Shown: piece after piece, positions 15,296 through 40,603 of the stretch
How the letters are laid out: every line of letters begins with the position of its first letter
Numbering within the stretch: position 1 is the stretch's first letter
Assembly: GCA_002401445.1 (NCBI GenBank)
Contig: NVTD01000001.1
Location: 1-52,507, forward strand
DNA from: Candidatus Wolfebacteria bacterium
GTDB lineage: Bacteria; Patescibacteriota; Minisyncoccia; Phycocordibacterales; GCA-2401445
Length of the DNA: 52,507 nt
Reading direction: 5' to 3'
Program-made: the position numbers and the translations under genes
The notes under the pieces: generated by a model
What the model was told of the DNA's origin: nothing
Database searches by the model: none
What the model saw: the letters and a program-made list of their open reading frames with translations, nothing else

Positions 15296-16297
15296 CTAAC
15301 TTTGCAATACCTTTTTAACTGCTTTTTTAATTGCGGCTTCATCTAATCCATAGTGCACAATCAATTCATCTGGAGTTCCTGATTGACCAAAGACATCACG
15401 TACTCCAACAAAAGCTATCGGCACTGGGAAATTTTCAGCAAGTACTTCAGCAACTGCACTTCCCAATCCTCCTACAACTTGGTGCTCTTCAACGGTGACG
15501 ATATGTTTTGTCTCACGAGCAAGCGCTATGACCGCAGCGCTATCGAGAGGTTTTATTGTTGCACAGTTAAGTACTTTGATGCGTACTCCCTTTTCTTCTA
15601 ATTCTTTAGCAACCCTAAGCGCACGGTGCAATAATGCTCCTGTCGCAATAATCCCTACTTCAGCATCGCCACTTTCTGGTTCATAAAAAACCGCTGCTTT
15701 CCCTATTTCAAATGGTGTTTCCTCTGAGGTAATAATAGGTGTCTTTTCTCGCGCCAAACGTACATAGGTTGGATCAGGTGTTTTGGCACACGCAATAGTC
15801 GCCTTTCGCGCCTCGATAGCATCACATGGTGAAATGACGACCATACGCGGTATAACACGCGTGATAGCAATGTCCTCGATTGCTTGGTGTGTACCACCGT
15901 CAGGACCAACAGATACTCCAGCGTGCGAACCAGCGATCTTTACAGGTACATTGTTATAGCAGATCGTTGTGCGAATTTGTTCCCAATTACGTCCAGGCGA
16001 AAACATTGCATATGAAGTAATAAAAGGAATCTTACCCATTGCTGCCATGCCACTTGCGACACTCGCAAGATTTTGCTCTGCAACACCAATTTCAATAAAA
16101 CGCTCGGGAAATTCATCACGAAAGAAATTCATTTTTGTTGAATCAGTTAGATCAGCACATAGACCAACAACATTTTCGTCAGCCTTCCCGGCCTCGAGTA
16201 ACCCCTCACCAAACCCTTGTCGAATAGGCACTTGCTCAACGTCATCACTGAACATTTCTTTATTTAAATTTTGCTTTGAGTTAATCATTGTTCTCAT
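15296..16297 (-). CDS. Transketolase, C-terminal subunit
   Basis: 333 aa covering the pyrimidine-binding (Pyr) and C-terminal domains of transketolase. Motifs: VGLCADLTDSTKMNFF, FIEIGVAEQNLASVASGMAA (catalytic Glu for TPP), TSYAMFSPGRNWEQIRT, GSHAGVSVGPDGGTHQAIED and VEEHQVVGGLGSAVAEVL. Together with the adjacent N-terminal subunit it makes one active enzyme; split transketolases are common in archaea and some bacteria. The start overlaps the end of tktN by 17 nt; the ATG at 16288 is an alternative. Last gene of the gap-rpiB-rpe-tktN-tktC run. Confidence 0.93.
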   Translation of the reverse strand: MRTMINSKQNLNKEMFSDDVEQVPIRQGFGEGLLEAGKADENVVGLCADLTDSTKMNFFRDEFPERFIEIGVAEQNLASVASGMAAMGKIPFITSYAMFSPGRNWEQIRTTICYNNVPVKIAGSHAGVSVGPDGGTHQAIEDIAITRVIPRMVVISPCDAIEARKATIACAKTPDPTYVRLAREKTPIITSEETPFEIGKAAVFYEPESGDAEVGIIATGALLHRALRVAKELEEKGVRIKVLNCATIKPLDSAAVIALARETKHIVTVEEHQVVGGLGSAVAEVLAENFPVPIAFVGVRDVFGQSGTPDELIVHYGLDEAAIKKAVKKVLQS

Positions 16298-17159
16298 TCA
16301 TTATTTTCTTATCAAGAGTACGCAATGCGGTGTGCGCTGCCTTTTTCTCTTCATCACTCTTTGGAGGCTTACCATGCCATTCAGGTAGACGTTCAAACTC
16401 TGGTACTCCTTTGCCTGGAATTGTATTAGCAATGATCACACTCGGTTTGTCACCTACTGCTTGTGCATTCCCAAATGCTTCAATAATCGCATCAAAATTA
16501 TGTCCATCAATTTCCTGGACATGCCAGTTAAAGGCCTCCCATTTCTTGTCCATGGGATTCATTGGTAGGACATCCTCTGTATAACCATCGATCTGAATGT
16601 AGTTGCGATCAACAATTGCAATGAGATTGTGTAGCTTTTCTTTTCCCGCCAACATGATTGCTTCCCAGTTCTGCCCCTCTTGTAATTCACCATCCCCAAG
16701 GAAACAATAGAAAAACTTACTTGATGATCGTCCATTATTCAGGCGTTCTGCAATTGCCATCCCGAGAGATTGTGACAATCCTGAGCCAAGTGGACCTGAA
16801 CTTGTTTCCATGGCTGGTAGGAATTCACGATGTGGATGTCCTTGCAAACGTGAGCCGAATTTTCGTAGTGTTTTTAATTCGTCTACCGGGAAATATCCGC
16901 TATGCGCCATTGTGGCGTAGAGCACAGGACAAATATGTCCATTGGAAAGAACTACTCGATCACGATCCTCCCAAGCGGGGTCTTGTGGATTATGTTTGAG
17001 GATATGAAAATATAGTGCAGTAAAAATATCTGTCATACCGAGGGGCCCTGCTGTGTGTCCACTCCCTGCCTCGATCAACATATCGATAATCGAAAGGCGC
17101 ACATGGTTTGCCATATGCTCGAGTGTTTGTGGTGTGTGATCTTCTACAAGTGATGTCAT
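16281..17159 (-). CDS. Transketolase, N-terminal (TPP-binding) subunit
   Basis: 292 aa carrying the thiamine diphosphate PP domain: SGHTAGPLGMTDIFTALYF, VLSNGHICPVLYA, SSGPLGSGLSQSLGMA, and GDGELQEGQNWEA followed by AIVDRNYIQIDG (the GDG-X-N motif). It moves C2 ketol units between pentose and triose/hexose phosphates with the C-terminal partner encoded next. It starts 2 nt after the rpe stop, so translation is coupled. Confidence 0.94.
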   Translation of the reverse strand: MTSLVEDHTPQTLEHMANHVRLSIIDMLIEAGSGHTAGPLGMTDIFTALYFHILKHNPQDPAWEDRDRVVLSNGHICPVLYATMAHSGYFPVDELKTLRKFGSRLQGHPHREFLPAMETSSGPLGSGLSQSLGMAIAERLNNGRSSSKFFYCFLGDGELQEGQNWEAIMLAGKEKLHNLIAIVDRNYIQIDGYTEDVLPMNPMDKKWEAFNWHVQEIDGHNFDAIIEAFGNAQAVGDKPSVIIANTIPGKGVPEFERLPEWHGKPPKSDEEKKAAHTALRTLDKKIMNENND

Positions 17160-17161
17160 TG

Positions 17162-17824
17162 TTATAGTGATTTAAAATTTAATATTGTTGTAGAAATGTC
17201 GTCTGACTTAAATATAGCCGAGCCACTAACTAAACGACTAGCTCCAGCCTCTATAAGTTTTGGAGCTGTATCAAGAGTAACTCCTCCGTCAACACTAATT
17301 ATAATATCTGCATACTTAGATTTCAATGCTCTAATCTGTGAAATAACTCGCTCATCAAACGGTTGCCCCTGATAGCCAATTTTTGCTATCCCCATACATT
17401 GAACAAAATCAATCTTGGGAATAAACTCACTCAATCTATCTACTTCCGTATCTGTGTTTATTGCAATACCAATTTCAACTGATGTGTCTGTGTTGCGAAT
17501 TACCTCAATCGTTTTATCCATGTTATCCGTACTTTCAATATGGATGATTATTCTAGAAGCACCCGCATCCACCCACTGAAGCACAACATCTTCTGGCGAA
17601 GTAACCATAAGATCAACCTCAAAAGCGACACCGAGCAAATGTAGCACAGCTGTATCTTCACTTATATTGGTTTGTGAATCAGTGTATGGCCAACCTTTTG
17701 AAGGCACAAATACACCGTCGACAATATCAATCTGAACAAGTGGCACAAACGAAGAAACCTTCGACACGTTTTCGCGTAAATCATCAAACGATTTTGGAAT
17801 AATTGCTGGTATAATTTCAGTCAT
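17162..17824 (-). CDS. Ribulose-phosphate 3-epimerase-like protein, divergent active site
   Basis: 220-aa TIM-barrel of the RPE family: IPAIIPKSFDDLRENV, QIDIVDGVFVPSKGWP, GIAINTDTEVDRL, KIGYQGQPF, SVDGGV and ASRLVSGSAIF. The context (between rpiB and transketolase) argues for epimerisation of ribulose-5-P to xylulose-5-P. However, two of the four canonical metal ligands are changed: the His of the usual HxDVMDG is Gln, and the His of DVHLM is Asp (FEVDLMV). The two Asp ligands (IDIVDG and SVDGG) remain. The start at 17824 is one base after the rpiB stop; the longer frame to 17890 overlaps rpiB. Confidence 0.85.
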   Translation of the reverse strand: MTEIIPAIIPKSFDDLRENVSKVSSFVPLVQIDIVDGVFVPSKGWPYTDSQTNISEDTAVLHLLGVAFEVDLMVTSPEDVVLQWVDAGASRIIIHIESTDNMDKTIEVIRNTDTSVEIGIAINTDTEVDRLSEFIPKIDFVQCMGIAKIGYQGQPFDERVISQIRALKSKYADIIISVDGGVTLDTAPKLIEAGASRLVSGSAIFKSDDISTTILNFKSL

Positions 17825-17825
17825 A

Positions 17826-18410
17826 TTAGAAAAGGCCGAGCCATTTAAGAAGGATACTTCCAATAATTGATGCAACGATTCCCTGCACAATGTTTGTCGA
17901 CATTGGCAAAGTATTCCTCTTTAGAAAACTTTTCTTCTCCAGAAGTGCATCGATTTTCTTTATGCGTCGTATATGTCTTACTTCTCCCGAAAATTCTGTA
18001 TCAATCCATTCTGAAACCGCCTCACGAGCTTCAAGGGGTGTGAGGAACCGAGCACCCAGGCTCAAAATATTTGAATCATTGTGTTCACGAGCAAGACGTA
18101 TTTCTCTCGGAACACTGCGTCCATTTTGCGGATCATATTGACCGTTGAACACAATTGCACGAACACCCTTTATTCGATTTGCAGCAATTGCTTCTCCCTG
18201 TCCAGATCCACCAATAACGATACCCATCGTATCTTCTGGATTATTCGCAACTTCACGAGCAACCGGTATTATAAAATCTGGATAATCATCTCCTTCATCA
18301 TATTCATGAGCACCAACATCTGACACGTCATGGCCCTGATCACTTAAAAATGAAACGAGGTCTTTTTTTAAAACAAATCCGGCATGGTCCGCACCAATGA
18401 CAATTTTCAT
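17826..18410 (-). CDS. rpiB: Ribose-5-phosphate isomerase B with hydrophobic C-terminal tail
   Basis: Interconverts ribose-5-P and ribulose-5-P. RpiB motifs: IGADHAGFVLKKDL, GGSGQGEAIAANRIKGVRA and REHNDSNILSLGARF. The loop that often bears a catalytic Cys (CGTG) is GGSGQG here. Normal RpiB is about 150 aa; this one has 194, with a basic linker (RHIRRIKKIDALLEKKSFLKR) and a C-terminal hydrophobic stretch of about 22 residues (IVQGIVASIIGSILLKWLGL) that looks like a membrane tail. Stop and rpe start are one base apart, so the tail is in the natural frame. It follows gap by 10 nt. Confidence 0.92.
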   Translation of the reverse strand: MKIVIGADHAGFVLKKDLVSFLSDQGHDVSDVGAHEYDEGDDYPDFIIPVAREVANNPEDTMGIVIGGSGQGEAIAANRIKGVRAIVFNGQYDPQNGRSVPREIRLAREHNDSNILSLGARFLTPLEAREAVSEWIDTEFSGEVRHIRRIKKIDALLEKKSFLKRNTLPMSTNIVQGIVASIIGSILLKWLGLF

Positions 18411-27468: not shown

Positions 27469-27502
27469 ACAAGAAGAATATCTCCTTGTTATTTCTTTCT
27501 TT
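27469..27502 (+). terminator. Possible terminator between convergent genes
   Basis: AACAAGAAG ... CTCCTTGTT (9 positions, one mismatch) then ATTTCTTTCTTTT on the plus strand. It overlaps the end of the convergent minus-strand gene. Confidence 0.4.
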
Positions 27503-29528
27503 TGAAAAACTTACCTACTGAGATTCCTAATTCAATCGCCCGTGGCACACTTGTTGTTACTTTACCAGAAAATATTTGCCAAAATCCTGGAAACACTTCG
27601 TTAATAATTGTCGGCCGAGCATCAGTTTTTTCTTTTTTGGGCAAAACAACTCTTGTCACATAAAGAGATGAGATAGGTTGGCATTTCTCAATATCCTCTA
27701 AATATGGGGCCCACTTTTTCTTATAATTATCAAATCTCCTCATTCTCCTTTTTTCGTCATTGTAATAAGGAATATCAAACTTGAAGTTTGGAGCCTCCCC
27801 AACAACCCTCTCCAAAACTGAAAGCTCTACATCATAAAAAAGATATTTTTTTGAAAAACCAAAAGGCATAACACCGAAAAATGGACCATCTATTACTGAC
27901 CACCCCTCTTTACTCCATGGTGTCTTCACAACAGGCATTTCACACAACTCATATTGATATGTGTTAAGTGGTAAACCAAAAAGACTATTGATGTGATTTA
28001 TATTTCCATATGCAGCATTGATAATGGCCCCACAATTAACAGTCTTTTGGACTTTTCCTGTTTTATATATAATATTAAATCCGTCGGAATTTTTCTTAAT
28101 ACCAACCACCTCTGTTTTTGTCAAAAGCGTCATGTTGGGTGTCATGGCTATTTTTTTGTTAAGGATATCTCTTATTACATTCGCGTCAAAAATCTTCTCC
28201 GGAACTTTTGCACTTAAAGATATTTTTTCTTTAGATAAATTTGCCTCGACAGGCCAAGATTTTTTATATGGTAGCCTAAGTTTTCTACAAAATTGATGGA
28301 AGTCTTCAGGGTTAGTTAAACTTCCATGCTTGGCAATTAAATAATAATTATTAAGATCCTTGACGATAGCTTTATCAAAAAATCTCTCAAAAATAGCATT
28401 TGTACGTCTACTTTCTCTAGCGGTCTTTTCATCACGAGGATAGTGATACCCCATATGAACCCTGCATTGATTTACAAGAGAGGCCCCAGTAATTATTTCT
28501 GATGCTTTTTCAAAGACTACAACTGAGTAGCCCTTTTTAGCTATTTCTAGAGCTGATAGAATACCGAAAATTCCACCGCCAATTACAACAACCAGTTTAG
28601 ACGCATGCTCTACAATACGGATTTCTTCCTTTGCAATAGGTAAATATCTATGGAGTGTTAAAATATTATTATCCGAACCATTTCCACTAAAGTATTTAAG
28701 GGAGCTGCTTATCATTTTTTCCAAAACATCTTCACGTACTTGATGTTCTTTTTTTGCAATGGTTATCGATGGATATTTTACAAAACCACCTGACCCCAAA
28801 ATACCTGAGAAATTTGCAACAAGAGCGGGCTTATCGTCTCCATTTAAGAAAATCTTAACAATTTCTGTCTTCTTTACATCAGTAATATTTGAAACAATGT
28901 GTATATTTTTTTTACCAACATATCGTAAGGCAATGCTATTGTCCGAGGAATTCTCAACAACAAAATTAGACTTTCCCTTAATAAGCTTAGTGTCAAACAG
29001 AATCTGTAGAATGTGTGGCAAAAAAGCTGTTGTGGCCGTATAAGACTCTTTACGAGGAGATTTAAAAGATCGAGAAAAAACTACATCTACCGAGGATATC
29101 TTACTTTTGTTTTTTTTCACAAAACTCGTTACTTCCTCCACTAATTTTGAATAATGCCACTGCGAAGCGACAAGAATTTTCAATTTATGATGATGTGCTA
29201 AATATTGTATTTGTGACAATTCTTTCTTAGTAATTGCAATCGGTTTAGGAAGAACAAAATTTTTAGCGCCAATTTTAATAAAATCCTCCATCACAGCAAT
29301 TATCGAGTCTTGGTGAACAGAAATATCAAAAACATCTCTTTTATCAGGTTTTCCAAAATTTTTCTCCCACCCAATGGCTGAACTAAAAAATGGAACATCG
29401 AAAAATATGGCATCTTTGGGCTTACCTCTGCTTATCACTGTCTTTAGTTTGGCATTCTTGAATTTTTTGTATTTATTAGCAATTCTTGTTCCATGCACTC
29501 CTGCGCCAATTATTGTGATATTTACCAT
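27489..29528 (-). CDS. Fusion: Gfo/Idh/MocA-like NAD(P) domain plus FAD-dependent oxidoreductase (DAO type)
   Basis: 679 aa from the ATG at 29528. Residues about 1-310 form a Rossmann domain (VNITIIGAGVHGTRIANKYK) with NFVLPKPIAITKKE, the KP motif of Gfo/Idh/MocA oxidoreductases, then LVASQWHYS and a beta-sheet domain. From about residue 314 a second nucleotide-binding site begins, LVVVIGGGIFGILSALEIAK (GxGxxG for FAD), followed by VFEKASEIITGASLVNQCRV, HMGYHYPRD and GAIINAAYGNIN, typical of DAO/GlpO-like FAD oxidases. I infer a bifunctional redox enzyme acting on a sugar or glycan-linked acid. The upstream 30 codons to 29618 look non-coding. Opposite in direction to its neighbours. Confidence 0.85.
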   Translation of the reverse strand: MVNITIIGAGVHGTRIANKYKKFKNAKLKTVISRGKPKDAIFFDVPFFSSAIGWEKNFGKPDKRDVFDISVHQDSIIAVMEDFIKIGAKNFVLPKPIAITKKELSQIQYLAHHHKLKILVASQWHYSKLVEEVTSFVKKNKSKISSVDVVFSRSFKSPRKESYTATTAFLPHILQILFDTKLIKGKSNFVVENSSDNSIALRYVGKKNIHIVSNITDVKKTEIVKIFLNGDDKPALVANFSGILGSGGFVKYPSITIAKKEHQVREDVLEKMISSSLKYFSGNGSDNNILTLHRYLPIAKEEIRIVEHASKLVVVIGGGIFGILSALEIAKKGYSVVVFEKASEIITGASLVNQCRVHMGYHYPRDEKTARESRRTNAIFERFFDKAIVKDLNNYYLIAKHGSLTNPEDFHQFCRKLRLPYKKSWPVEANLSKEKISLSAKVPEKIFDANVIRDILNKKIAMTPNMTLLTKTEVVGIKKNSDGFNIIYKTGKVQKTVNCGAIINAAYGNINHINSLFGLPLNTYQYELCEMPVVKTPWSKEGWSVIDGPFFGVMPFGFSKKYLFYDVELSVLERVVGEAPNFKFDIPYYNDEKRRMRRFDNYKKKWAPYLEDIEKCQPISSLYVTRVVLPKKEKTDARPTIINEVFPGFWQIFSGKVTTSVPRAIELGISVGKFFKRKK

Positions 29529-29734
29529 AATATAAGAAACTTTTTGAGAATATTTTAGCTTTAAGCGTCTACTGTTAAAACAAAAGCTCAACAGCAAAAA
29601 TCCCCAACATTGTAACAAAGAAAACCCCTTCTATCAATGGCCGCTGAGTCCTAGTTTGTGATAAAATATCAATGTTTAATCACACTATGTAACCACGCTA
29701 TATATTGTATGCAAGCGCCCAATTTACAACATTG

Positions 29735-29748: not shown

Positions 29749-31887
29749 ATGGATAGAAAACCTTTTAATACTCCTATACTTTTTGTAGTTTTTAACAGAC
29801 CAGATAATACTAGGTTAGTTTTTGAAGAAATAAGAAAACAAAGACCAGCGTCGCTTTTTATTGCTGCCGACGGCCCGAGAGAAAGTAATCCTGGTGACGC
29901 TGCAAAATGTACCGAGGTCAGAAAAATTGTTTCAAATATTGACTGGCCATGTGATGTTCATACTCTTTTTAGGGAGAAAAACCTGGGATTCAGAGACGCT
30001 GAGAGGCTGGCCTTTGACTGGTTTTTTGAGAATGTTGAGGAAGGAATAATCTTAGAAGATGACCAGCTTCCACACCCTTCATTTTTTAGATACATTTCTG
30101 AAATGCTAGAAAAATATAGGAACGACGAAAAAATAATGATGATCACAGGTGGTAATTTTCTTCCAGATTTAAAAGTTAAAGAGGATTATTTTTTTTCAAA
30201 ACATTTTCCAATCTGGGGATGGGCCACATGGAGACGAGCGTGGAATAAATATGATTTTGATATCAAGAGTTGGGGCAGTACCAAAAACAAGAGGAGACTA
30301 AAGGCTATGTACCCTCAAAAATATGTTAGGGATCATTTAGTAAAAATGTTTGATGAAATTTATTACAGAAACAAAAGTACATGGGATACACAGTGGATGT
30401 ATGCATGTATCATGAACAACGGCTTCTGCATAACCCCAAGAGTGAATCTAATTTCAAATATAGGGGTTTCAGGAACTCACCAAGGAGGAAGTAATCAAAA
30501 TTTACCAGTCCATGACATTTATAGGTCAAGTAATTTGCTCCATCCGCAAAGAAAAGAAGTAAATACAAATTACGACAATGCATTCAATAAAAAGAGTTTC
30601 TCACCAAGACCATTTAGTCTTAAAAGATGGGTCGTTTCAGTACTTGTTAAATACGAAAGTATAAAAATATTATATCGCTTTTTAAGGAAAAGTTTATTGA
30701 AAATTCATACTATTTTTTATCTAACCCCTAAAATAATAAGGGTTTATATTAATAAAGTCACAAACAAACTGTACGGTATTGTTCATGTACCAGCTAGTGG
30801 GAAATTTAATGGAAATGTTTTGCTTTCTTATATTACGTCTCCTTTTGTTTTTGGACCTACAGAGTATCCGACAGACCCGCATACCAATTATTGGGAGTGT
30901 TCAGAAATAGCCCGCTTATTTTCTGTACGAGGATATTCTGTTGATATTATAGATGCAAATAATACAAACTTTAAACCGCATAGACAATATAAGGCTGTAG
31001 TGGATACAAAAAATAACCTAGAAATCCTGTCGCCAATGCTTCCTTCTTCTTGTAAGAAGGTGATGCACATTACTTCTTCCTATGGTAAGTATCAAAACAC
31101 ACAAGAAAAAGAGAGGTTGGTTAACTTAAAAAATAGACGCGGGGTTTCCTTTACAAAGCAACGAGTCGAAGAAGAGTCTGACAATCCAATGTATGCAGAT
31201 TTTTTAGAGGGATTTGGTAATAAAACAGTACATGCTTCATTTTTGAGCTTTAAAAAACCCATTCATCCAATCCCTATCTCTGTAGCAGAGACATTTGATT
31301 TTCCACAAAATAAGGACTTCTCTGTCGCTAGAAAACATTTTTTATTTTTTGGAGGAGGTGGAGCTATTCTCAAAGGACTTGACTTGGTAATTGAGGCTTT
31401 TTCTGTCATGCCAAATTTACATATACACATAGTTGGACCTGCTTCTTATGAAAAAGAATTTTCTGAAGAATATAAAAAGGAACTTGCTTTGCCAAATGTA
31501 CATCGCTATCAAAGACCAAAAATATCAAAAAACGGGGTACTCTCAATAGGAGAAGGTCTTTTCAGTGAACTGGCAGATACATGTGCTCACATAATATACC
31601 CTTCTGCCTCAGAGGGGACGTCTGGTGCCGTCATTCAAGCCATTCATGCTGGTGTTATTCCTATAGTAACTAAGGAAACAGGACTGTCTGAAAAATCTTC
31701 TCCTATATTAATTGAAGATCCATCTGTAGAGTCTATTGTCACATTGGCACAAGAAAGGTCTGAGATTGATCCGGAGCTCTTGTATAGAGAGGCCTATGAT
31801 TCATGGGAGTATGTAAATAAGCACCATACTAAAGAAAAATTTAGTGACGCTTATGCCGATTTTATTGATAATATTCTAGATATATGA
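29749..31887 (+). CDS. Two-domain glycosyltransferase (GT-A type N-terminus, GT-B/GT4-like C-terminus)
   Basis: 712 aa. Residues about 1-290 form a nucleotide-diphosphosugar transferase domain of the HlpA/GNT-I-like group: TPILFVVFNRPDNTRLVFEE, REKNLGFRDAERLAFDWFF, the metal-binding GIILEDDQLPHPSFF, and PIWGWATWRRAWNKYD. Residues about 340-712 are GT4-like: ISVAETFDFPQNKDF, FLFFGGGGAILKGLDLVIEAF, IHIVGPASYE, HIIYPSASEGTSGAVIQAIH. The two active sites in one chain suggest successive transfers onto the same acceptor. It overlaps the next gene by 4 nt (ATGA). Confidence 0.85.
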   Translation: MDRKPFNTPILFVVFNRPDNTRLVFEEIRKQRPASLFIAADGPRESNPGDAAKCTEVRKIVSNIDWPCDVHTLFREKNLGFRDAERLAFDWFFENVEEGIILEDDQLPHPSFFRYISEMLEKYRNDEKIMMITGGNFLPDLKVKEDYFFSKHFPIWGWATWRRAWNKYDFDIKSWGSTKNKRRLKAMYPQKYVRDHLVKMFDEIYYRNKSTWDTQWMYACIMNNGFCITPRVNLISNIGVSGTHQGGSNQNLPVHDIYRSSNLLHPQRKEVNTNYDNAFNKKSFSPRPFSLKRWVVSVLVKYESIKILYRFLRKSLLKIHTIFYLTPKIIRVYINKVTNKLYGIVHVPASGKFNGNVLLSYITSPFVFGPTEYPTDPHTNYWECSEIARLFSVRGYSVDIIDANNTNFKPHRQYKAVVDTKNNLEILSPMLPSSCKKVMHITSSYGKYQNTQEKERLVNLKNRRGVSFTKQRVEEESDNPMYADFLEGFGNKTVHASFLSFKKPIHPIPISVAETFDFPQNKDFSVARKHFLFFGGGGAILKGLDLVIEAFSVMPNLHIHIVGPASYEKEFSEEYKKELALPNVHRYQRPKISKNGVLSIGEGLFSELADTCAHIIYPSASEGTSGAVIQAIHAGVIPIVTKETGLSEKSSPILIEDPSVESIVTLAQERSEIDPELLYREAYDSWEYVNKHHTKEKFSDAYADFIDNILDI

Positions 31888-32744
31888 GCAACCCTTTAAT
31901 TTCAGTAATATTACCTACACACAATAATTCTTCTACAATAAAAGAAGCGATCACTTCTATAATCAATCAGACATACAAAAATTTGGAGATAGTGATAGTT
32001 GATGATAAAAGTACTGACGACACAAGAGAAATAGTTAAGAACATGCAAGAAGAAAACCCCAATAAAAAGATTCTTTATTACTTACTCCCATTTGATGATC
32101 CCGCCCGCTTCAACAAACGAGGGAGAAATATTAATGCTGGCTACTCAGCAAGAAACTACGGACTAGAGAGGGTAAGTGGTGAGTGGGTTACCTTTCAGGA
32201 TGCTGATGATGTTTCCTTTTTAAACAGAATCGAGTGGCAATATAAATTTGCACAAAAATATAACTCAATCCATATTTGTACTAATGCTATTTTTTTAAAA
32301 AAAGAATGGTCTGAAAAAAAGTTTGATGTTGAAAAATACTTAGCTGATAATCCTGATCACATAACCAACAGCGAAGAACTATATAAAATGGCAAAAAAAG
32401 CAAAAGGGATTATTATTCCATTTCTGGGTAAGCTAAACTCAAAAATTCCTTTTGGATTAAAAACAAGCAGAGTTATAAACAAACTATTTTTTGGTAATTT
32501 AGATCCATATCCAGCAGCAGCCAACAGTCCTTTATTTAAAAAAGAGATTTTCAAAAAAGTAAAATTCCGCCAAACTCAATACAGAATTTGGCCATCATTT
32601 GTTGGAAGAGGAGCTGATCGCGATTTCAATTTTCAAATCGCCGAGACTTTCAAAAATAGTGTCGTAATAAAAGCCCCACTCTACATGTGGCGCCAAGACC
32701 CCAATAAATTTAATTTCAAGGAATTCGAAAAATATATAATATAA
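31884..32744 (+). CDS. GT2-family glycosyltransferase
   Basis: 286 aa with the GT-A N-terminus LISVILPTHNNSSTIKEAIT, then INQTYKNLEIVIVDDKSTDD and the metal-binding region GEWVTFQDADDVSF. The C-terminal part after about residue 170 is unassigned. It transfers a sugar from a nucleotide donor in the cytosol. Translationally coupled to the upstream two-domain transferase (4-nt overlap). Contains a T7A7 tract at about 32290-32303 that could be prone to slippage. Confidence 0.9.
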   Translation: MSNPLISVILPTHNNSSTIKEAITSIINQTYKNLEIVIVDDKSTDDTREIVKNMQEENPNKKILYYLLPFDDPARFNKRGRNINAGYSARNYGLERVSGEWVTFQDADDVSFLNRIEWQYKFAQKYNSIHICTNAIFLKKEWSEKKFDVEKYLADNPDHITNSEELYKMAKKAKGIIIPFLGKLNSKIPFGLKTSRVINKLFFGNLDPYPAAANSPLFKKEIFKKVKFRQTQYRIWPSFVGRGADRDFNFQIAETFKNSVVIKAPLYMWRQDPNKFNFKEFEKYII

Positions 32745-32763: not shown

Positions 32764-33507
32764 TTAAAGGGTTTTCCTTATAACAGAAACTCCCTTATGC
32801 TTAACTACCTCAGAAGCACACTCATTAGCAAATTTTATGGAACTTTTTATATCTTCTGTTTCAATATATTTTGCAAGTAGGGCTGCGAAAAAACTATCGC
32901 CAGCACCAGAAGTATCTTTAACTTCCACCCGATCAGCAACTGGATATAATTCACCCATAAAAGTTGCCCCTCCACCTCCTTTTGTACAAATTATTTTCTT
33001 TTCAATATCATCAGTTATCGAGCCCAGAGATCTTTCATACTCATAATTATTTATCTTAATAAATTTGGCCTTTTTGGCCCAATCCCCCAAAACCTTTTTT
33101 GTATCAATAAAAACAGTGTCGTTATTTTCACAGATATATTTTATGTCTTCCTCAATCAAAAATCCCTTATTATAATCTGAAATAGCAATAATATCATAAT
33201 CAAAAGGAATCTTTTTAACATCTATTCTTTTTATATTATGATCTGTATCAACCCTTAAAAACGCATGGTTGCTGCCATGGTGCATATACCTAGTCTTCGT
33301 GACATCTTGCCAATTTTCATTTGTAATAACATCGCAGTTATCAATAATATTATTAATATTTCTTTCGACATTTTTTACCATTCCGGGATTTTCTTTCTGT
33401 TCAATAATATTAAGTACTGGAATAGGCAAATCTGGAGCTAGACGATTAGCCCCACAGTACACAAATATATCCTTGCAACCTTCTCCTATCAATAATATTT
33501 TTTTCAT
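32764..33507 (-). CDS. PfkB-family kinase resembling the HldE/RfaE heptose-7-phosphate kinase domain
   Basis: 247 aa. GEGCKDIFVYCGANRLAPDL followed by PIPVLNI matches the D.Y..G...RLSPEAPVPV start of HldE kinase domains, and the C-terminus has the KDTSGAGDSFFAALLA catalytic signature. The usual domain is about 310 aa; about 60 residues are missing from the lid and central sheet, so activity or substrate may differ. Last gene of a tightly coupled four-gene operon (ATGA overlap with the upstream gene). No nucleotidyltransferase partner is visible in the window. Confidence 0.85.
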   Translation of the reverse strand: MKKILLIGEGCKDIFVYCGANRLAPDLPIPVLNIIEQKENPGMVKNVERNINNIIDNCDVITNENWQDVTKTRYMHHGSNHAFLRVDTDHNIKRIDVKKIPFDYDIIAISDYNKGFLIEEDIKYICENNDTVFIDTKKVLGDWAKKAKFIKINNYEYERSLGSITDDIEKKIICTKGGGGATFMGELYPVADRVEVKDTSGAGDSFFAALLAKYIETEDIKSSIKFANECASEVVKHKGVSVIRKTL

Positions 33508-34427
33508 ATCTTTTCTATTTTACCTGTTCTTGTATTATAAAATGGAGCGTCCTTCAAGAAAAAACTTATCGTCTCCTCGTGTTCCATAAAATAACGTTTA
33601 CCATCTTTGTCTCGGCACTCTTTTGTTGTTGTATTCACAAAACCCTCTTCTGGTGTCAAATGTCTTAATTCCCCCAATTTATCTTTTCTCACAAAAAAAG
33701 CATTTATTCCTTGACGACTACATCCAACAAGAGAGTACCCCTTTACTTCAGCCAAATCACAAAGTGAAGTTAGCGATGCTCCGCAATACCAAGTTCCATA
33801 ATCACTCTTTGTTCTAACAAAATTTTCTTCATACGGAATAGTAATGGGCTTTAATCCAAAAAGTGGGTTGTACTCGATTACAACAATAGTTGGTGAAGTT
33901 TTTATTGCTTCCCAAATCCAATAATCGTTTCCATCAATATCTATGTTAAGTAAGCCAACTTCTTTAAATTTAATTAGATCATTTATGTTTTCTACAGTTA
34001 CAAATGCCTGTTTTGCCTCAATATCGAAAAAGGGATAATATTCACTGTTTTTTAAAGAATCAACAGGTGAACCGTCTATTGCAATACCACTCCAATTATT
34101 ATTTTGTAAGAGAAACCTTGTGTCTGGTTGTGTATATCTTCCTCCCCCTATATCTACAAATGTTTTTGGGCAATCAATTTTACTAATAAGATACTGAATG
34201 ATTCCATCATCACCACCTTGAGAGAAAATGCTAAACTCTGCCTCGTGTATATCTTCTAAAGTTCCTTTTCTTAGTAATGCTTCTGTTAAAAGTTTCCCTA
34301 ACAAAAGCTTCTGTTTGTCAGACTCGCTTGTAATCAATCCTTCAATTTCTCTAATTTTATTATCAAAATTTATATAGTTATAAATTTTTTTCTTGATCTT
34401 TCTAAATAAACTTTCCATTGTTTTCAA
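33504..34427 (-). CDS. FkbM-like methyltransferase-fold protein
   Basis: 307 aa. Helical N-terminus (LFRKIKKKIYNYINFDNKIR), then FSQGGDDGIIQYLISKIDCP and the SAM-like loop TFVDIGGGRYTQPDTRFLLQ, GIAIDGSP, and LLNIDIDGNDYWIWEAIKTS, the position of the FkbM KIDVEGHE-type motif. YNPLFGLKPITIPYEENF follows. Likely O-methylates a sugar, or is a degenerate relative. Third gene of the operon, 3 nt after the thiamine enzyme; the ATG at 34418 is an alternative start. Confidence 0.75.
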   Translation of the reverse strand: MKTMESLFRKIKKKIYNYINFDNKIREIEGLITSESDKQKLLLGKLLTEALLRKGTLEDIHEAEFSIFSQGGDDGIIQYLISKIDCPKTFVDIGGGRYTQPDTRFLLQNNNWSGIAIDGSPVDSLKNSEYYPFFDIEAKQAFVTVENINDLIKFKEVGLLNIDIDGNDYWIWEAIKTSPTIVVIEYNPLFGLKPITIPYEENFVRTKSDYGTWYCGASLTSLCDLAEVKGYSLVGCSRQGINAFFVRKDKLGELRHLTPEEGFVNTTTKECRDKDGKRYFMEHEETISFFLKDAPFYNTRTGKIEKI

Positions 34428-34430
34428 TGT

Positions 34431-35633
34431 TTAATATCTGCTTTTTCTTTCTACTATCATAACAGGTCTTCCGGATAGCTGAGCGGTTTTAAAAGCTTTT
34501 AATACGTCCACCCCCGTCACTGGATCGAAAACAGGAAAATCTACCAGTTTTTTAAATGCTTCTGTGAAATCTTGAGAGTGTGTAGGACCTGAATAAAAAG
34601 GACCTGCATCTGCTGTTACTGCTCTTATTATTACAGGAACCTTATACTCTCCATGAGAAATTCTTTCAATTTTATCGATATGATTAACTATCGCATCAGC
34701 AGCAACTAAAATAAAATCATGTCTCTCAATATATAAAACAGGAATAAATCCTTCAAAAGACATGCCGATAGCTAATCCTGACATAAGATTTTCTGCGACT
34801 GGCGTTTCTATTTTTTGTTCATTTGGAACATTTTTTAATGTCCCCATAGCATCACCCTGTGCTACATTATATCCAATAAACACAGCTCCCTCTTTGCCAA
34901 GTTCATCCATTGATTGAATTACAGCATCCTTATAGGTAATGTCTAATCCTTCTAACTCCTCAAAGGACGGAAATGTTTCTGGTTTTAAGGGTGGAAAATA
35001 TTCTTCGTCTGTCTTCTTAACAGCTTTTGATAGATCAATCATTCCAGGTTTTCGGGCGTGTGGATACGTAATGTCATAACTATATTTGATGACGGAAGGA
35101 GAATCCCATTTATAGTCTGCGGTCTTACCCCATCTTTCCTCATTTGTGGTTTCAACAGATCTATTATTACTTTCAATAACAAAAGTACAAGGAAGATCCC
35201 AGCCATCAACATATCGAACTGCCTCAAACAGATGCCCAGAATCTTCTGTACCGTCACCGACAAAACACCAAACTTTTTGCTTTGATCCTTTCTTCTTGAG
35301 TGCAAGAGCTATTCCCGCAGCTATCGCTGGTGTCCCACCAATAATTGCAGAACAAAAGAAATTCTTTTCTCTGTCATACACAAACATACTTTTACCGTCG
35401 AGTATACTCTGCTTCAACACATCTGGAGATATTCCATGTAGTAATGCGTGGTAATGATTCCGGTGATTTGAAATAACATAATCACCTTCTTTTATATCTT
35501 TAAAAATATCAATTAGAGGCTCTTCATTACCGCCAGAGAGGTGAAATAGAAATGGCAATTTATTGTCCATGTATAGATCGCCAATTTCATTTTCAAAGGC
35601 GACTAATTCTTCTTTTGTCCATTGTTTTCTCAT
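34431..35633 (-). CDS. Miniature fused E1-type thiamine-diphosphate enzyme
   Basis: 400 aa combining E1-alpha and E1-beta halves of the 2-oxoacid dehydrogenase / transketolase superfamily. Alpha part: NHRNHYHALLHGISPDVLKQ, then GDGTEDSGHLFEAVRYVDGW (GDG at 126-128) and VIESNNRSVETT with NN at 156-157, the GDG-X(27)-NN thiamine signature. Beta part from about 215: TPVAENLMSGLAIGMSFEGF with the Glu that activates thiamine, then HDFILVAADAIVNHID and SGPTHSQDF. Normal alpha plus beta total about 650 residues, so both halves are trimmed. No E2 or E3 genes are here, so a carboligation or ketol transfer on a sugar or keto acid is likelier than dehydrogenation. Start overlaps the dehydrogenase stop (TAATG). 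Confidence 0.85.
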   Translation of the reverse strand: MRKQWTKEELVAFENEIGDLYMDNKLPFLFHLSGGNEEPLIDIFKDIKEGDYVISNHRNHYHALLHGISPDVLKQSILDGKSMFVYDREKNFFCSAIIGGTPAIAAGIALALKKKGSKQKVWCFVGDGTEDSGHLFEAVRYVDGWDLPCTFVIESNNRSVETTNEERWGKTADYKWDSPSVIKYSYDITYPHARKPGMIDLSKAVKKTDEEYFPPLKPETFPSFEELEGLDITYKDAVIQSMDELGKEGAVFIGYNVAQGDAMGTLKNVPNEQKIETPVAENLMSGLAIGMSFEGFIPVLYIERHDFILVAADAIVNHIDKIERISHGEYKVPVIIRAVTADAGPFYSGPTHSQDFTEAFKKLVDFPVFDPVTGVDVLKAFKTAQLSGRPVMIVERKSRY

Positions 35634-36673
35634 TAGGAAGACAATTCTATCATTATTCTCCCTGCCTGGCCAGATCGTACCAAATGTATTGCTTCGTTAA
35701 TATCATCTAATTTCATTGTATGACTAATTATTCCTTCGATAGAGAGAACTCCCGCTTGGTGCATACGCACGTATCTCGCAATCTGACGACCTGGCGAAAA
35801 CCCTCCTCCTTGTGTTGCCATAATTTTTTTACCATCACCCTCAAAAAGATGTACTGCATTTTTCAACTCAACTGATTCTCCTGGTTTTGGCTGACCAACG
35901 AAAATAAATCTTCCTGTTCCAGAGAGAAGTTGGATTGTCTCTTCCAAACTTTGCTTGTTTCCTGAAGTATCTATAATGACATCAATCTCAGTAATTCCAA
36001 AAGCTTTCTCGATTTCAGATGATATATTGTGAGTAGTACAATTAATATACAGGTTAGCTCCTAGAGATTCACATATTTCCTTTTTACTATCAGTAACATC
36101 GACGATAATAATCGGATACGCACTCGCCAATTTAGCTGCGGTGACAAGATTGACGCCAAGTCCACCTGCACCAATAATCAAAACACTCTCTCCAAACTTT
36201 ACATTTGCTTCTTCATTTACCGTACCTAATGCAGTCGACAACCCACATCCCAACAGAGCACACAGCTCATTTGGAGTGTCTTGCGGAACGGGTGTTATCC
36301 GGTTTTCTGAAACAATGGAATATTCGCTTAACGTCGTAACCTTACCACCACTTATTATATTTCCATTATATGTATATTTGGGAAAATCAGATTCTATGCC
36401 ATCACCCTTTCGCCAATGCATAACCACCTTGTCTCCCTTTTTTACCTTAGTCACACCAACACCAACTTCTTCCACGATGCCACATCCTTCATGTCCCAAG
36501 AGATGTGGCATGAAGCGAGCATTATTTTTATTGCCAGCAATTTCTTGGAGCTGCGCGCCGCATATACCGCTCATTATTACCTTAACTAAAACCTGCCCAA
36601 AGGACACATCTGTCAATCCTACTTCTCCAACTAGCAATTCCCCGTTTACTTTTTCTAATATTACTGCTTTCAT
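35633..36673 (-). CDS. Zinc-dependent alcohol dehydrogenase (MDR family)
   Basis: 346 aa. Catalytic-zinc Cys in MSGICGAQLQEIAG, GHEGCGIVEEVGVGVTKVKK with the second ligand His, and the Rossmann fold SVLIIGAGGLGVNLVTAAKL. The four-Cys structural-zinc lobe typical of yeast/horse ADH is absent (that region reads HWRKGDGIESDFPKYTYNGN). The end ...LVRSGQAGRIMIELSS is usual. First gene of the coupled operon ADH - thiamine enzyme - FkbM-like - kinase; may reduce the product of the thiamine enzyme. Divergent from the next plus-strand operon across a 59-nt hairpin. Confidence 0.92.
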   Translation of the reverse strand: MKAVILEKVNGELLVGEVGLTDVSFGQVLVKVIMSGICGAQLQEIAGNKNNARFMPHLLGHEGCGIVEEVGVGVTKVKKGDKVVMHWRKGDGIESDFPKYTYNGNIISGGKVTTLSEYSIVSENRITPVPQDTPNELCALLGCGLSTALGTVNEEANVKFGESVLIIGAGGLGVNLVTAAKLASAYPIIIVDVTDSKKEICESLGANLYINCTTHNISSEIEKAFGITEIDVIIDTSGNKQSLEETIQLLSGTGRFIFVGQPKPGESVELKNAVHLFEGDGKKIMATQGGGFSPGRQIARYVRMHQAGVLSIEGIISHTMKLDDINEAIHLVRSGQAGRIMIELSS

Positions 36674-36799: not shown

Positions 36800-36852
36800 A
36801 ATCAAAAAATGGGCTAAAAATTATGAATGAATTCTACATCACAAAGGGAAAA

Positions 36853-38130
36853 ATGTCTACAGTGATACTGTGCCACCACCTAGGTTTAGGTGATCATGTT
36901 ATGTGTCATGGAATCGTTCGAGAATATTGTAAAAAATATAGCAAGGTTCTCATTTTTTCTAAACCACATAATTACGATTCTGTATCTTTTATGTTTAGAG
37001 ACATAGCCAACCTAGCAATTGCCAAAGGTGATGACACCACCATGAAAGAATTTATTCAGCTTAATACATCTAAATTCCAAGGGCTAAAATATGATGAGGT
37101 AAAAGCCATAGGCTTTCAACACTTAAATAGAGAAAGCGGTATTCCTCTTGAATGGCAATTTTACCAAATCGCCGGTGTTCCTTTCGAAAAAAAGTGGAGT
37201 AGCTTTTTTATTAATAGAGATATTGAAAGAGAGAAAGCACTTTTTGAAAAAATTGCTCCAAAAGAAGACTATGTGTTTCTACACGAGGACACCTCTCGAA
37301 AATACATAATCAAAAGAAACCTGATCAACAAAAATTATGCGCTAGTAACTCCTGGGATAGAACTTACGAGCAACTTTTCTGATTATTGCAGTATCATAGA
37401 AAAGGCAAAGGAAATCCATGTCATTGACTCTTCATTCATGTTCCTGATAGATTGCCTTCCTTATAACAATCCAGACCAAAAACTTTATATTCATAGGTAT
37501 GCTCGAGAAAACAATGAATGGCAACTCCCAATACTCAAAAAAGACTGGCATATATTTATAGAAGAACCGAGTAAATTAGACCCTTTAAAGAATCTTATAA
37601 AGAGGCTCTCGAATCTCAAGACACCAATTTTCATACACATATTCTTAAAAAGAGCTGTACGTAAAATATTTAAAATATTAAACTGGTCTATGAATCGACC
37701 GAAACAAACTGATATACTCGCACTTATTAGACGATACGTACCGGGAAAATCATTTATTGCCATTTCTTCAGAAAAAAGCAATGATACTGCATACATATCA
37801 GCAGCAAAGATCATGGGAGCCACAAAGACTGGTATTATAACCTTGAATACACTAGAAAAAGTTGAATCCGCAGATATTGTGTTTTGTTCTAGCTCACTCT
37901 TAACAAATCCCAATCTACTCGAACTACTTAAAAAACTACGCACCATAACAAACCAAACCCTTATTCTTAGCATACCTTCTGCTGTTAATACATTAAACAA
38001 GAAAGGGCTAACGGGTATTACGCTAAGTGACACTGGGTCAGTGTTTACGCAAGCAGGATTTGAAATACGAGAAAAGCACATACTACCTCTTGATTCGTGT
38101 TTAGTATGCCGTGCGGTTCCAATAACATAA
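36853..38130 (+). CDS. Glycosyltransferase-like protein (GT9-like N-terminus) with degenerate methyltransferase-like C-terminus
   Basis: 425 aa. The start STVILCHHLGLGDHVMCHGI resembles the GLGDxL motif opening GT-B heptosyltransferase (GT9) proteins; IHVIDSSFMFLIDC is a GT9-like donor-site segment. After about residue 300 comes a region reminiscent of a class I methyltransferase lacking a clear SAM motif (FIAISSEKSNDTAYISAAKI, ESADIVFCSSSLL, FTQAGFEIREKHILPLDSCL). Function unproven. I chose 36853 because AAGGG sits 5 nt upstream and alignment starts there; the ATG at 36823 adds ten residues. Confidence 0.6.
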   Translation: MSTVILCHHLGLGDHVMCHGIVREYCKKYSKVLIFSKPHNYDSVSFMFRDIANLAIAKGDDTTMKEFIQLNTSKFQGLKYDEVKAIGFQHLNRESGIPLEWQFYQIAGVPFEKKWSSFFINRDIEREKALFEKIAPKEDYVFLHEDTSRKYIIKRNLINKNYALVTPGIELTSNFSDYCSIIEKAKEIHVIDSSFMFLIDCLPYNNPDQKLYIHRYARENNEWQLPILKKDWHIFIEEPSKLDPLKNLIKRLSNLKTPIFIHIFLKRAVRKIFKILNWSMNRPKQTDILALIRRYVPGKSFIAISSEKSNDTAYISAAKIMGATKTGIITLNTLEKVESADIVFCSSSLLTNPNLLELLKKLRTITNQTLILSIPSAVNTLNKKGLTGITLSDTGSVFTQAGFEIREKHILPLDSCLVCRAVPIT

Positions 38131-39060: not shown

Positions 39061-39824
39061 AAACAAAATTAAAAAATATTACAATCTTAAAGATTCTTGT
39101 AATATATTTAAAGGTATTAAGAAATCCATACAATTTTTTACAAAAAAATTCACGTTTTTTGAATTTTTTAAGGGATTTGAAAAAATATAAAGCTCTTAAA
39201 CAGAATACAAATATTCCAATAAAAAACTCAGATTTGTATCCTAGGGTGCACGACAAAACAAAAATAACAGGAATAGATCCAATATATTATCTACAGAACA
39301 CGTGGTGTGCCAAAAAGATTTTTGAAAACAAACCACAAAAACATTACGACATAGGTTCTCACTCTATGATGGTTGGAATTATTTCTCAATTTGTTCCAAC
39401 AACAATGGTAGATATTAGACCGCTGTCTGTAACACTTCCTGAATTATCTTTTATAAAAGGAGATATTACTGATTTACCATTTGAAGATAATTCTATTGAC
39501 TCCCTCTCTTCAATTTGTGTTATAGAACATATTGGACTAGGTAGATATGGGGATTCTCTTGATCAATTTGGCACTGAGAAATCTGCCGAGGAATTAAAAA
39601 GAGTCTTAGCCAAAAAAGGAGATCTCTATATAAGTGTTCCTATAGATATGGAAAATAAAGTCTATTTCAATGCACACAGAGCATTTACACGAGATTATAT
39701 CCTAGAACTTTTTTCCTCCCTTTCTCTTATCGAAGAGAAGTATATTTATGGAAATAAGATGTACGCTGAATACAGAAAAGACAAAGGATTTGGAACAGGT
39801 CTATATTGTTTTAAAAAAATATGA
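39039..39824 (+). CDS. DUF268-type methyltransferase-like protein
   Basis: 261 aa with a basic N-terminal 45 residues (KTKLKNITILKILVIYLKVL), then KHYDIGSHSMMVGIISQFVP as a SAM-like loop, PFEDNSIDSLSSICVIEHIG and GLGRYGDSLDQFGTEKSAEE. The last stretch is the diagnostic motif I recall for DUF268 proteins found in O-antigen and capsule loci. The biochemical role of the family is unproven; a methyltransferase fold is likely. It starts inside the end of the GT2 gene and overlaps the next by 4 nt. Confidence 0.8.
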   Translation: MQTKQRIKTKLKNITILKILVIYLKVLRNPYNFLQKNSRFLNFLRDLKKYKALKQNTNIPIKNSDLYPRVHDKTKITGIDPIYYLQNTWCAKKIFENKPQKHYDIGSHSMMVGIISQFVPTTMVDIRPLSVTLPELSFIKGDITDLPFEDNSIDSLSSICVIEHIGLGRYGDSLDQFGTEKSAEELKRVLAKKGDLYISVPIDMENKVYFNAHRAFTRDYILELFSSLSLIEEKYIYGNKMYAEYRKDKGFGTGLYCFKKI

Positions 39825-40603
39825 GTAACTATGTAAATCAATCAAAAGCACGACTTATTGACCTAATGCTATTCTTTGCATTTTTTCAAAGGATCATAGG
39901 AAAAAGATGGGTTTCTCGATGGACAAAAAATTATACGCTAGCAGAACAAGAGCTCTCTATTCTCCCTAAAATTTTAAAAAGGGATTCAATTATTTTTGAC
40001 ATTGGAGCAAATCGCGGTGAGCTTAGTTTCTTTTTTGCCGTAACATGTAACTTTAAAAAAGTATTTGCATTTGAACCACAGAGCAGAATGTTTGGAATAC
40101 TTGGGGGTGTCGCAGATAATATAACAAACATAATACCTATTAATACCGCCCTTTCTGATTCTGCAGAAAAAAAGATTTTAAAAATACCCATAAAATCTAC
40201 TGGACAATACACACCCGCAGCATCATTTGAACAAGTCCACGATAACAATTTAAAGAAAGAAAAAGTGGAAGTAGATACGCTCGATAATTTTGTAGCAAAA
40301 AATAACATACCCGCAGTAAACTTCATAAAATGTGATACCGAGGGTCATGAGCTTTCAGTGTTTAGGGGTGCTAAAAAAACACTAGAAACATTGAGACCAA
40401 TATTGTATATCGAAATAACAAACCCAAATGAACACCTTTTATTTGATCTACTAAGCCATGCGGGGTATAGACCCTATCAGTGGGATAATCTAAGTCTTTG
40501 TTTTGTCCCTAGGATAGATAGAAAAAATACTCCATCAGAAAATTACTATTTCGTCCCCATTGAAAAAGAAAAGAAAATTGCTGAAGCATTAAAAGATATA
40601 TGA
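39821..40603 (+). CDS. FkbM-family methyltransferase
   Basis: 260 aa. SAM motif SIIFDIGANRGELSFFFAV, KVFAFEPQSRMFGIL, and the FkbM signature VEVDTLDNFVAKNNIPAVNF, IKCDTEGHELSVFRGAKKTL. Probably O-methylates a sugar hydroxyl in the exported glycan. Overlaps both neighbours by 4 nt (ATGA), so the three genes are translated as a unit. Confidence 0.92.
   Translation: MSNYVNQSKARLIDLMLFFAFFQRIIGKRWVSRWTKNYTLAEQELSILPKILKRDSIIFDIGANRGELSFFFAVTCNFKKVFAFEPQSRMFGILGGVADNITNIIPINTALSDSAEKKILKIPIKSTGQYTPAASFEQVHDNNLKKEKVEVDTLDNFVAKNNIPAVNFIKCDTEGHELSVFRGAKKTLETLRPILYIEITNPNEHLLFDLLSHAGYRPYQWDNLSLCFVPRIDRKNTPSENYYFVPIEKEKKIAEALKDI

Follow-up and report, generated by a model that had tools for sequence, protein, structure and literature searches.

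Thiamine enzymes that resemble the alpha and beta subunits of E1 components are known in sugar biosynthesis apart from any dehydrogenase complex. AviB1/AviB2 of the avilamycin pathway and Pau11/Pau12 (Plm8/Plm9) of the paulomycin pathway have been assigned the attachment of a pyruvate-derived two-carbon (C2) branch to keto sugars, after which a reductase converts the branch (PMC4802897, PMC4425429, PMC4753412), a step carried out in the paulomycin pathway by the oxidoreductase Pau7, which reduces the acetyl branch. A C2 branch is also attached in O-antigen sugar synthesis by YerE (yersiniose) with thiamine diphosphate (ThDP, or TPP) as cofactor (PMC4753412), but that enzyme, a TPP-dependent flavoprotein by description, belongs to a TPP enzyme family other than E1. 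Heptoses are made by the ADP-heptose pathway (GmhA, HldE, GmhB, HldD), and shared kinase, nucleotidyltransferase and epimerase families have been noted in the lipopolysaccharide (LPS) clusters of the cyanophages S-SM2, P-SSM2 and S-SSM7 (Sullivan et al. 2010, PMC3037559). The locus considered here lies in a 52,507-nucleotide contig of Candidatus Wolfebacteria bacterium (Patescibacteriota; GCA_002401445.1, NVTD01000001.1, the whole of which is called the window), and comprises a zinc-dependent alcohol dehydrogenase (ADH), an E1-type enzyme of only 400 amino acids (aa), termed the mini E1, and a compact kinase related to the N-terminal domain of HldE, together with an FkbM-like gene.

The real unit of this locus is the trio of Zn-ADH, mini E1 and HldE-type kinase, a mobile cassette common to Patescibacteria and many aquatic phages. 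Compared with the descriptions of the Avi and Pau enzymes, it is set apart by a single chain without C-terminal domain, by the Zn-ADH and HldE-type kinase, by its probable link to heptose and by its occurrence in phages, whereas Pau11, of 325 aa, and Pau12, of 345 aa (PMC4425429), form two chains and act on 4-keto hexoses. The ADP-heptose pathway is approached in the type of kinase and in the heptose genes beside the phage and Prochlorococcus copies; it differs in that GmhA is missing in the phages and in the window genome, two distinct small proteins serve as kinase and nucleotidyltransferase, and ADH and E1 are extra. In S-SM2, the LPS cluster holds the ADH-E1-kinase set, while the paper describing it mentions no transketolase-like gene (PMC3037559), and the other cyanophages examined that have the kinase are without ADH and E1. 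Our literature search returned no description of the cassette, of cyanophage transketolase or ADH genes, or of heptose with thiamine enzymes, in keeping with an earlier reading of the sequence alone (the original prediction), which had singled out the locus as its best candidate for an undescribed pathway. We propose, with about as much confidence for as against, that surface glycans receive a modified heptose-type sugar from the mobile trio, through carboligation by the E1 enzyme.

In the mini E1, an E1-alpha-like PP domain (PF00676, E = 2e-17) is fused to an E1-beta-like Pyr domain (PF02779, E = 6e-11), at which the chain stops; the Pfam scan gave no E1-beta C-terminal domain (PF02780, Transketolase_C). 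The GDG...NN motif and activating glutamate named by the original prediction were located at residues 126-128 and 156-157 and at Glu281. Residues His63a, Arg90a, Glu59b and His128b of human pyruvate dehydrogenase (PDH) E1, which we take to be its catalytic residues, align with His31, Arg58, Glu281 and His352, all invariant or near-invariant among relatives; His31, Arg58 and His352 do not vary in 16 relatives. The best relatives in the Protein Data Bank (PDB) are PDH E1 alpha and beta, and the AlphaFold2 model (predicted local distance difference test score, pLDDT, 89; predicted template modelling score, pTM, 0.92) has the TK/E1 fold, with the E1-beta part superposing on solved E1-beta at about 2.2 A as a single-domain match; full-chain matches have a poor root-mean-square deviation, presumably owing to a shift of domains. 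The architecture of transketolase or DXS was not recovered (no PF00456, no C-terminal domain, DXP_synthase_N at just 22 bits), and a BFVD search with the model gave no match at E<=0.001. The protein belongs to phrog_34187, of unknown function in the PHROGs annotation. The names of the Pfam and NCBIfam matches would suit a conventional E1 of pyruvate or branched-chain dehydrogenase, or what is left of one after decay, but this is very improbable: the C-terminal domain is lacking, the score in the E1 equivalog models is 92 bits against a cut-off of 394, a profile search of the whole window genome found no E2 (PF00198), and a remnant is difficult to reconcile with the catalytic residues being invariant in phages and bacteria and with a mean column identity of 73% in an alignment spanning both. 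Because the genome is without E2 and the enzyme without the E1-beta C-terminal domain, carboligation appears more likely than oxidative acyl transfer, and the original prediction had likewise named the missing E2 partner and a likely carboligation.

The ADH matches PF08240 (2e-17) and PF00107 (2e-17), keeps the catalytic zinc ligands Cys38, His61/Glu62 and Cys143 in at least 97% of 39 relatives, lacks the structural-zinc cysteines, and is 57% and 52% identical to the S-SM2 and P-TIM68 phage proteins, respectively. The kinase (phrog_8133) matches PF00294 (6e-17), has TIGR02198 (rfaE_dom_I, 5e-26) as its best NCBIfam and HldA (4e84) as its best PDB match, and keeps both DTSGAGD, with the GAGD catalytic motif of PfkB, and RLxPxxPxPV, corresponding to the HldE N-terminal motif RLSPExPVP.

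That these three genes travel together is seen across genomes. ADH stands directly upstream of E1 (gap of at most 25 nt) in 36 of the 42 loci with a fused E1, far beyond chance, and the kinase follows E1 directly in 20 of the 42, with one or two variable genes in between at further loci; once near duplicates were removed, 37 loci were left, 34 with the ADH and 31 with the kinase. E1, ADH and kinase show correlated pairwise distances (r 0.66-0.79, permutation p about 0.0005), and the E1-linked kinases lie on one side of a branch with a Shimodaira-Hasegawa-like approximate likelihood ratio (SH-aLRT) of 89, five kinases of E1-less cyanophages being on the other. In two Patescibacteria (L043 and L044) the trio occupies the same position in a glycan cluster syntenic with that of the window. 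The original prediction had all four genes moving as one unit; this stands for ADH, E1 and kinase, linked in other genomes, and fails for the FkbM-like gene: it separates E1 from the kinase in the window and in L044 alone, whereas L043 and L041 have it away from the trio and on the other strand, and L042 lacks it. Absent or unlinked in three of the four Patescibacteria relatives, it was rejected as a member of the unit and regarded as a passenger, because its position is not conserved among these loci. Its product has no Pfam match at the cut-off (PF05050: 12.6 bits against a gathering score of 22.7, E 0.15); weak PF05050 matches in 7 of 9 members of its family (best 1.2e-4) and the resemblance of its model to S-adenosylmethionine (SAM) methyltransferases nevertheless mark it as a predicted distant FkbM-like protein of methyltransferase fold.

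Of 380 genomes sampled from the phylum, the window's own is the only one with the mini E1, whose occurrence there is accordingly rare and patchy. In genome contigs, it is 83-87% identical in four other Patescibacteria, all trio-bearing, and the window's nearest relatives are Patescibacteria by both the mini E1 and synteny. Over the full length, identity is 72% to Prochlorococcus phage P-TIM68 and 61% to Synechococcus phage S-SM2, both isolates, whose gene order is ADH, E1, kinase, with E1 directly downstream of ADH and, in S-SM2, one gene intervening before the kinase; IMG/VR yields 36 E1 loci, most with the trio, and Prochlorococcus single cells encode an E1 at 72-74% identity. The genome contigs further gave distant relatives (36-47%) and some contigs of metagenome-assembled genomes (MAGs) whose origin is doubtful; no E1 relative was found in the plasmid collection. 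One contig labelled Bifidobacterium breve (L046) bears the full phage-type set and is probably mis-binned. The original prediction had not expected a cassette mainly known from phages with heptose-type nucleotide-sugar neighbours. The E1 tree sets the fused enzymes apart on one side with strong support, and within this side the five Patescibacteria group together with weak support (93/77) in a mostly viral set; this topology fits a transfer from phages to Patescibacteria, the opposite direction being possible too, and some IMG/VR contigs may be cellular. A second, split form of the mini E1, with chains of about 200 aa and 180 aa and no C-terminal domain (L034-L040, L051-L075), is found in glycan loci of SAR11, SAR116, Gammaproteobacteria, Chloroflexota and viruses; like the Avi and Pau enzymes it consists of two chains, which are however not full-length. 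In several viral split-E1 loci other genes intervene between the two halves.

The neighbours of both forms point to heptose. Downstream of the trio, many phage loci have an HldD-like epimerase, an RfaE-II-like nucleotidyltransferase, the partner gene whose presence the original prediction had proposed to look for, a tiny HAD-like protein and a cupin; the HldD-like gene occurs in 19 and the RfaE-II-like gene in 13 of the 37 fused-E1 loci. The S-SM2 epimerase scores 206.8 bits as an ADP-heptose epimerase, and the phage nucleotidyltransferase 115.5 bits as RfaE-II. In Prochlorococcus, ADH-E1 stands beside GmhB, HldE, HldD and GmhA, a complete ADP-heptose set. The distant split E1 often accompanies HddA-, HddC- and GmhA-like genes of GDP-heptose loci in SAR11, Chloroflexota and Gammaproteobacteria: 31 split-E1 loci contain an HddA-like kinase in 15 cases, GmhA in 8, a short-chain dehydrogenase/reductase (SDR) resembling 4,6-dehydratases in 17 and an ADH in one, and in one operon (L060) the order is HddC-GmhA-E1a-E1b-GMD-like-HddA. 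A link of the E1 enzymes to heptose is thus likely from gene context, because two different heptose-nucleotide routes accompany the two E1 subfamilies. Cyanophages without E1 mostly still have the kinase, nucleotidyltransferase, HAD-like protein, cupin and epimerase, so ADH-E1 either supplements this set or makes up a version of it. Proteins of about 108 aa annotated as phosphoheptose isomerase in cyanophages (L002, L003, L077-L081) were rejected as GmhA; they have an HAD-like DxDGT motif and a weak LNS2 match, and the label is apparently a mis-annotation.

GmhA itself had no match across 11 phage records, including the complete P-TIM68 and S-SM2 genomes, although many of the records have HldE- or HldD-type genes, and this leads to another possible role for the E1, that of supplying the heptose precursor. 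With hydroxypyruvate or a ketose as donor of a C2 unit and the aldehyde of a pentose phosphate as acceptor, the enzyme would give sedoheptulose 7-phosphate (S7P) or a 1-deoxy analogue, which the ADH would reshape and the HldE-type kinase phosphorylate, in replacement of the GmhA route. The fold of the E1 model also matches DXS and transketolase, and in L060 the split E1 directly follows GmhA. We nonetheless consider this role unlikely: GmhA stays beside E1 in Prochlorococcus and in several split-E1 loci, other cyanophages have the kinase, nucleotidyltransferase and HldD-like set without E1, and S7P requires no ADH. The window, moreover, has a full-length split transketolase pair (PF00456; PF02779 + PF02780) with a ribulose-phosphate 3-epimerase at 15296-17890, 15 kb from the cassette, the pair holding the only transket_pyr gene of the genome besides the mini E1; since the window encodes its own transketolase, S7P needs no new enzyme, and an S7P synthase is ranked lower.

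C2 ligation onto a heptose-type acceptor is proposed instead because AviB1/B2 and Pau11/12 have been assigned the same chemistry on keto sugars. As regards substrates, sequence of reactions and the part of the ADH, we infer the following. The E1 would decarboxylate a 2-oxo acid, most likely pyruvate, and transfer the two-carbon unit to a carbonyl group on a heptose-type sugar, whose carbon skeleton would thereby be branched or extended. The ADH could either oxidise a hydroxyl to the acceptor ketone or, alternatively, reduce the new acetyl group; the fused E1 is nearly always accompanied by the ADH and the split E1 almost never, its loci often having the 4,6-dehydratase-like SDR, so that a possible ketone-making enzyme is near both. 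The kinase would phosphorylate the resulting sugar phosphate and, in phages, the RfaE-II-like nucleotidyltransferase and the HldD-like epimerase would complete the nucleoside diphosphate (NDP) sugar. In this specific form, as a new route to a C2-branched or extended heptose by a two-domain E1 carboligase, Zn-ADH and HldE-type kinase, encoded by a cassette of aquatic viruses, cyanophages among them, that is exchanged with Patescibacteria to alter surface glycans, the proposal is tentative and falls somewhat short of probable.

Several observations weigh against a heptose product. The kinase scores 91.6 bits in TIGR02198, its best family match, where the cut-off is 345, and its sugar-site motif reads GM instead of GG. 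No heptose gene lies within ten genes in 15 of the 31 split-E1 loci (16 have one), and these loci are glycan islands, where co-location is frequent; the 4,6-dehydratase label comes from resemblance to a single reference, and other SDRs are the best match for some of the proteins so labelled. The window genome, searched as a 1.12-Mb assembly rated 100% complete, gave neither GmhA nor a second HldE, and no match to the nucleotidyltransferase families PF01467, PF00483 and PF12804; its ADP-heptose check covered GmhA and PF01467, HldD not being part of the search. An RfaE-II match is missing in three of the four other trio-bearing Patescibacteria. With GmhA and the three nucleotidyltransferase families lacking, the full heptose pathway is incomplete in the window genome, where the proposal is weakest: Patescibacteria must either obtain activation from another source or put the product to a different use. 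The organism may rely on a partner cell for sugar activation. Its genome has many glycosyltransferases, despite the lack of matches to these three families, and the MAG of L041 has a separate, canonical-looking group of HldE kinase, GmhB-like and RfaE-II genes elsewhere (L092).

The retention in Patescibacteria of the trio alone, without GmhA and mostly without RfaE-II, would also be expected if the product were no heptose, e.g., an acyloin turned into a diol or deoxy-alditol, phosphorylated and attached as a glycan substituent, the phage heptose neighbours then being coincidental or alike in kinase type only. The altered sugar motif of the kinase would agree with this, as would the match of the phage nucleotidyltransferase to glycerol-3-phosphate cytidylyltransferase (86 bits). 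Such a product is doubtful, and we rate it as quite improbable, in view of the recurrence of heptose-type genes with both E1 subfamilies in viruses, Cyanobacteria, Pseudomonadota and Chloroflexota and of the score of the phage SDR as ADP-heptose epimerase; a modified heptose-type sugar is accordingly the product that we prefer.

As to the locus itself (Table 1), the open reading frame coordinates agree with the original prediction of four minus-strand genes with a 1-nt overlap (ADH/E1), a 3-nt gap (E1/FkbM-like) and a 4-nt overlap (FkbM-like/kinase); the gap presupposes a TTG start (34427) and would be 12 nt from the first ATG (34418). Plus-strand transferases had been expected on both sides, and this holds for the glycosyltransferase, while for the 435-aa protein, without Pfam match, it is unproven. 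Some phage loci, like other Patescibacteria, have a gene related to the latter adjoining the trio. The same glycan cluster includes a clear FkbM methyltransferase (39821-40603, plus strand; PF05050 1.6e-20), in contrast to the weak match of the cassette protein, and a 709-aa protein (27489-29618, minus strand) that is GFO/IDH/MocA-like towards the N terminus and an FAD oxidoreductase (DAO) towards the C terminus; no homologue of it was found in the syntenic loci L043 and L044. GAPDH and a class II aldolase are encoded near the transketolase genes, which together with the epimerase gene form a pentose-phosphate group.

Table 1. Genes of the cassette and its immediate flanks in the window.
Feature	Position	Strand	Remarks
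Zn-dependent medium-chain ADH	35633..36673	-	346 aa; first trio gene
Mini E1-type ThDP enzyme	34431..35633	-	400 aa; PF00676 + PF02779
Predicted distant FkbM-like SAM-methyltransferase-fold protein	33504..34427	-	307 aa; optional passenger
Compact PfkB kinase, HldE N-domain (heptose-7-phosphate kinase) type	32764..33507	-	247 aa; third trio gene
Glycosyltransferase flanking the cassette	31884-32744	+	one side
435-aa protein flanking the cassette	36823-38130	+	no Pfam or NCBIfam match

The proposal offers a testable function for the phage families phrog_34187 and phrog_8133, and the distribution of the trio suggests that phages and very small bacteria share a sugar-building module. A further suggestion is that heptose-linked surface glycan loci of SAR11, Chloroflexota, cyanobacteria and viruses widely use carboligation of the E1 type, which is known from a few antibiotic sugars. 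If the proposal is true, phages would make an unusual sugar in infection, possibly altering the host surface or decorating their particles.

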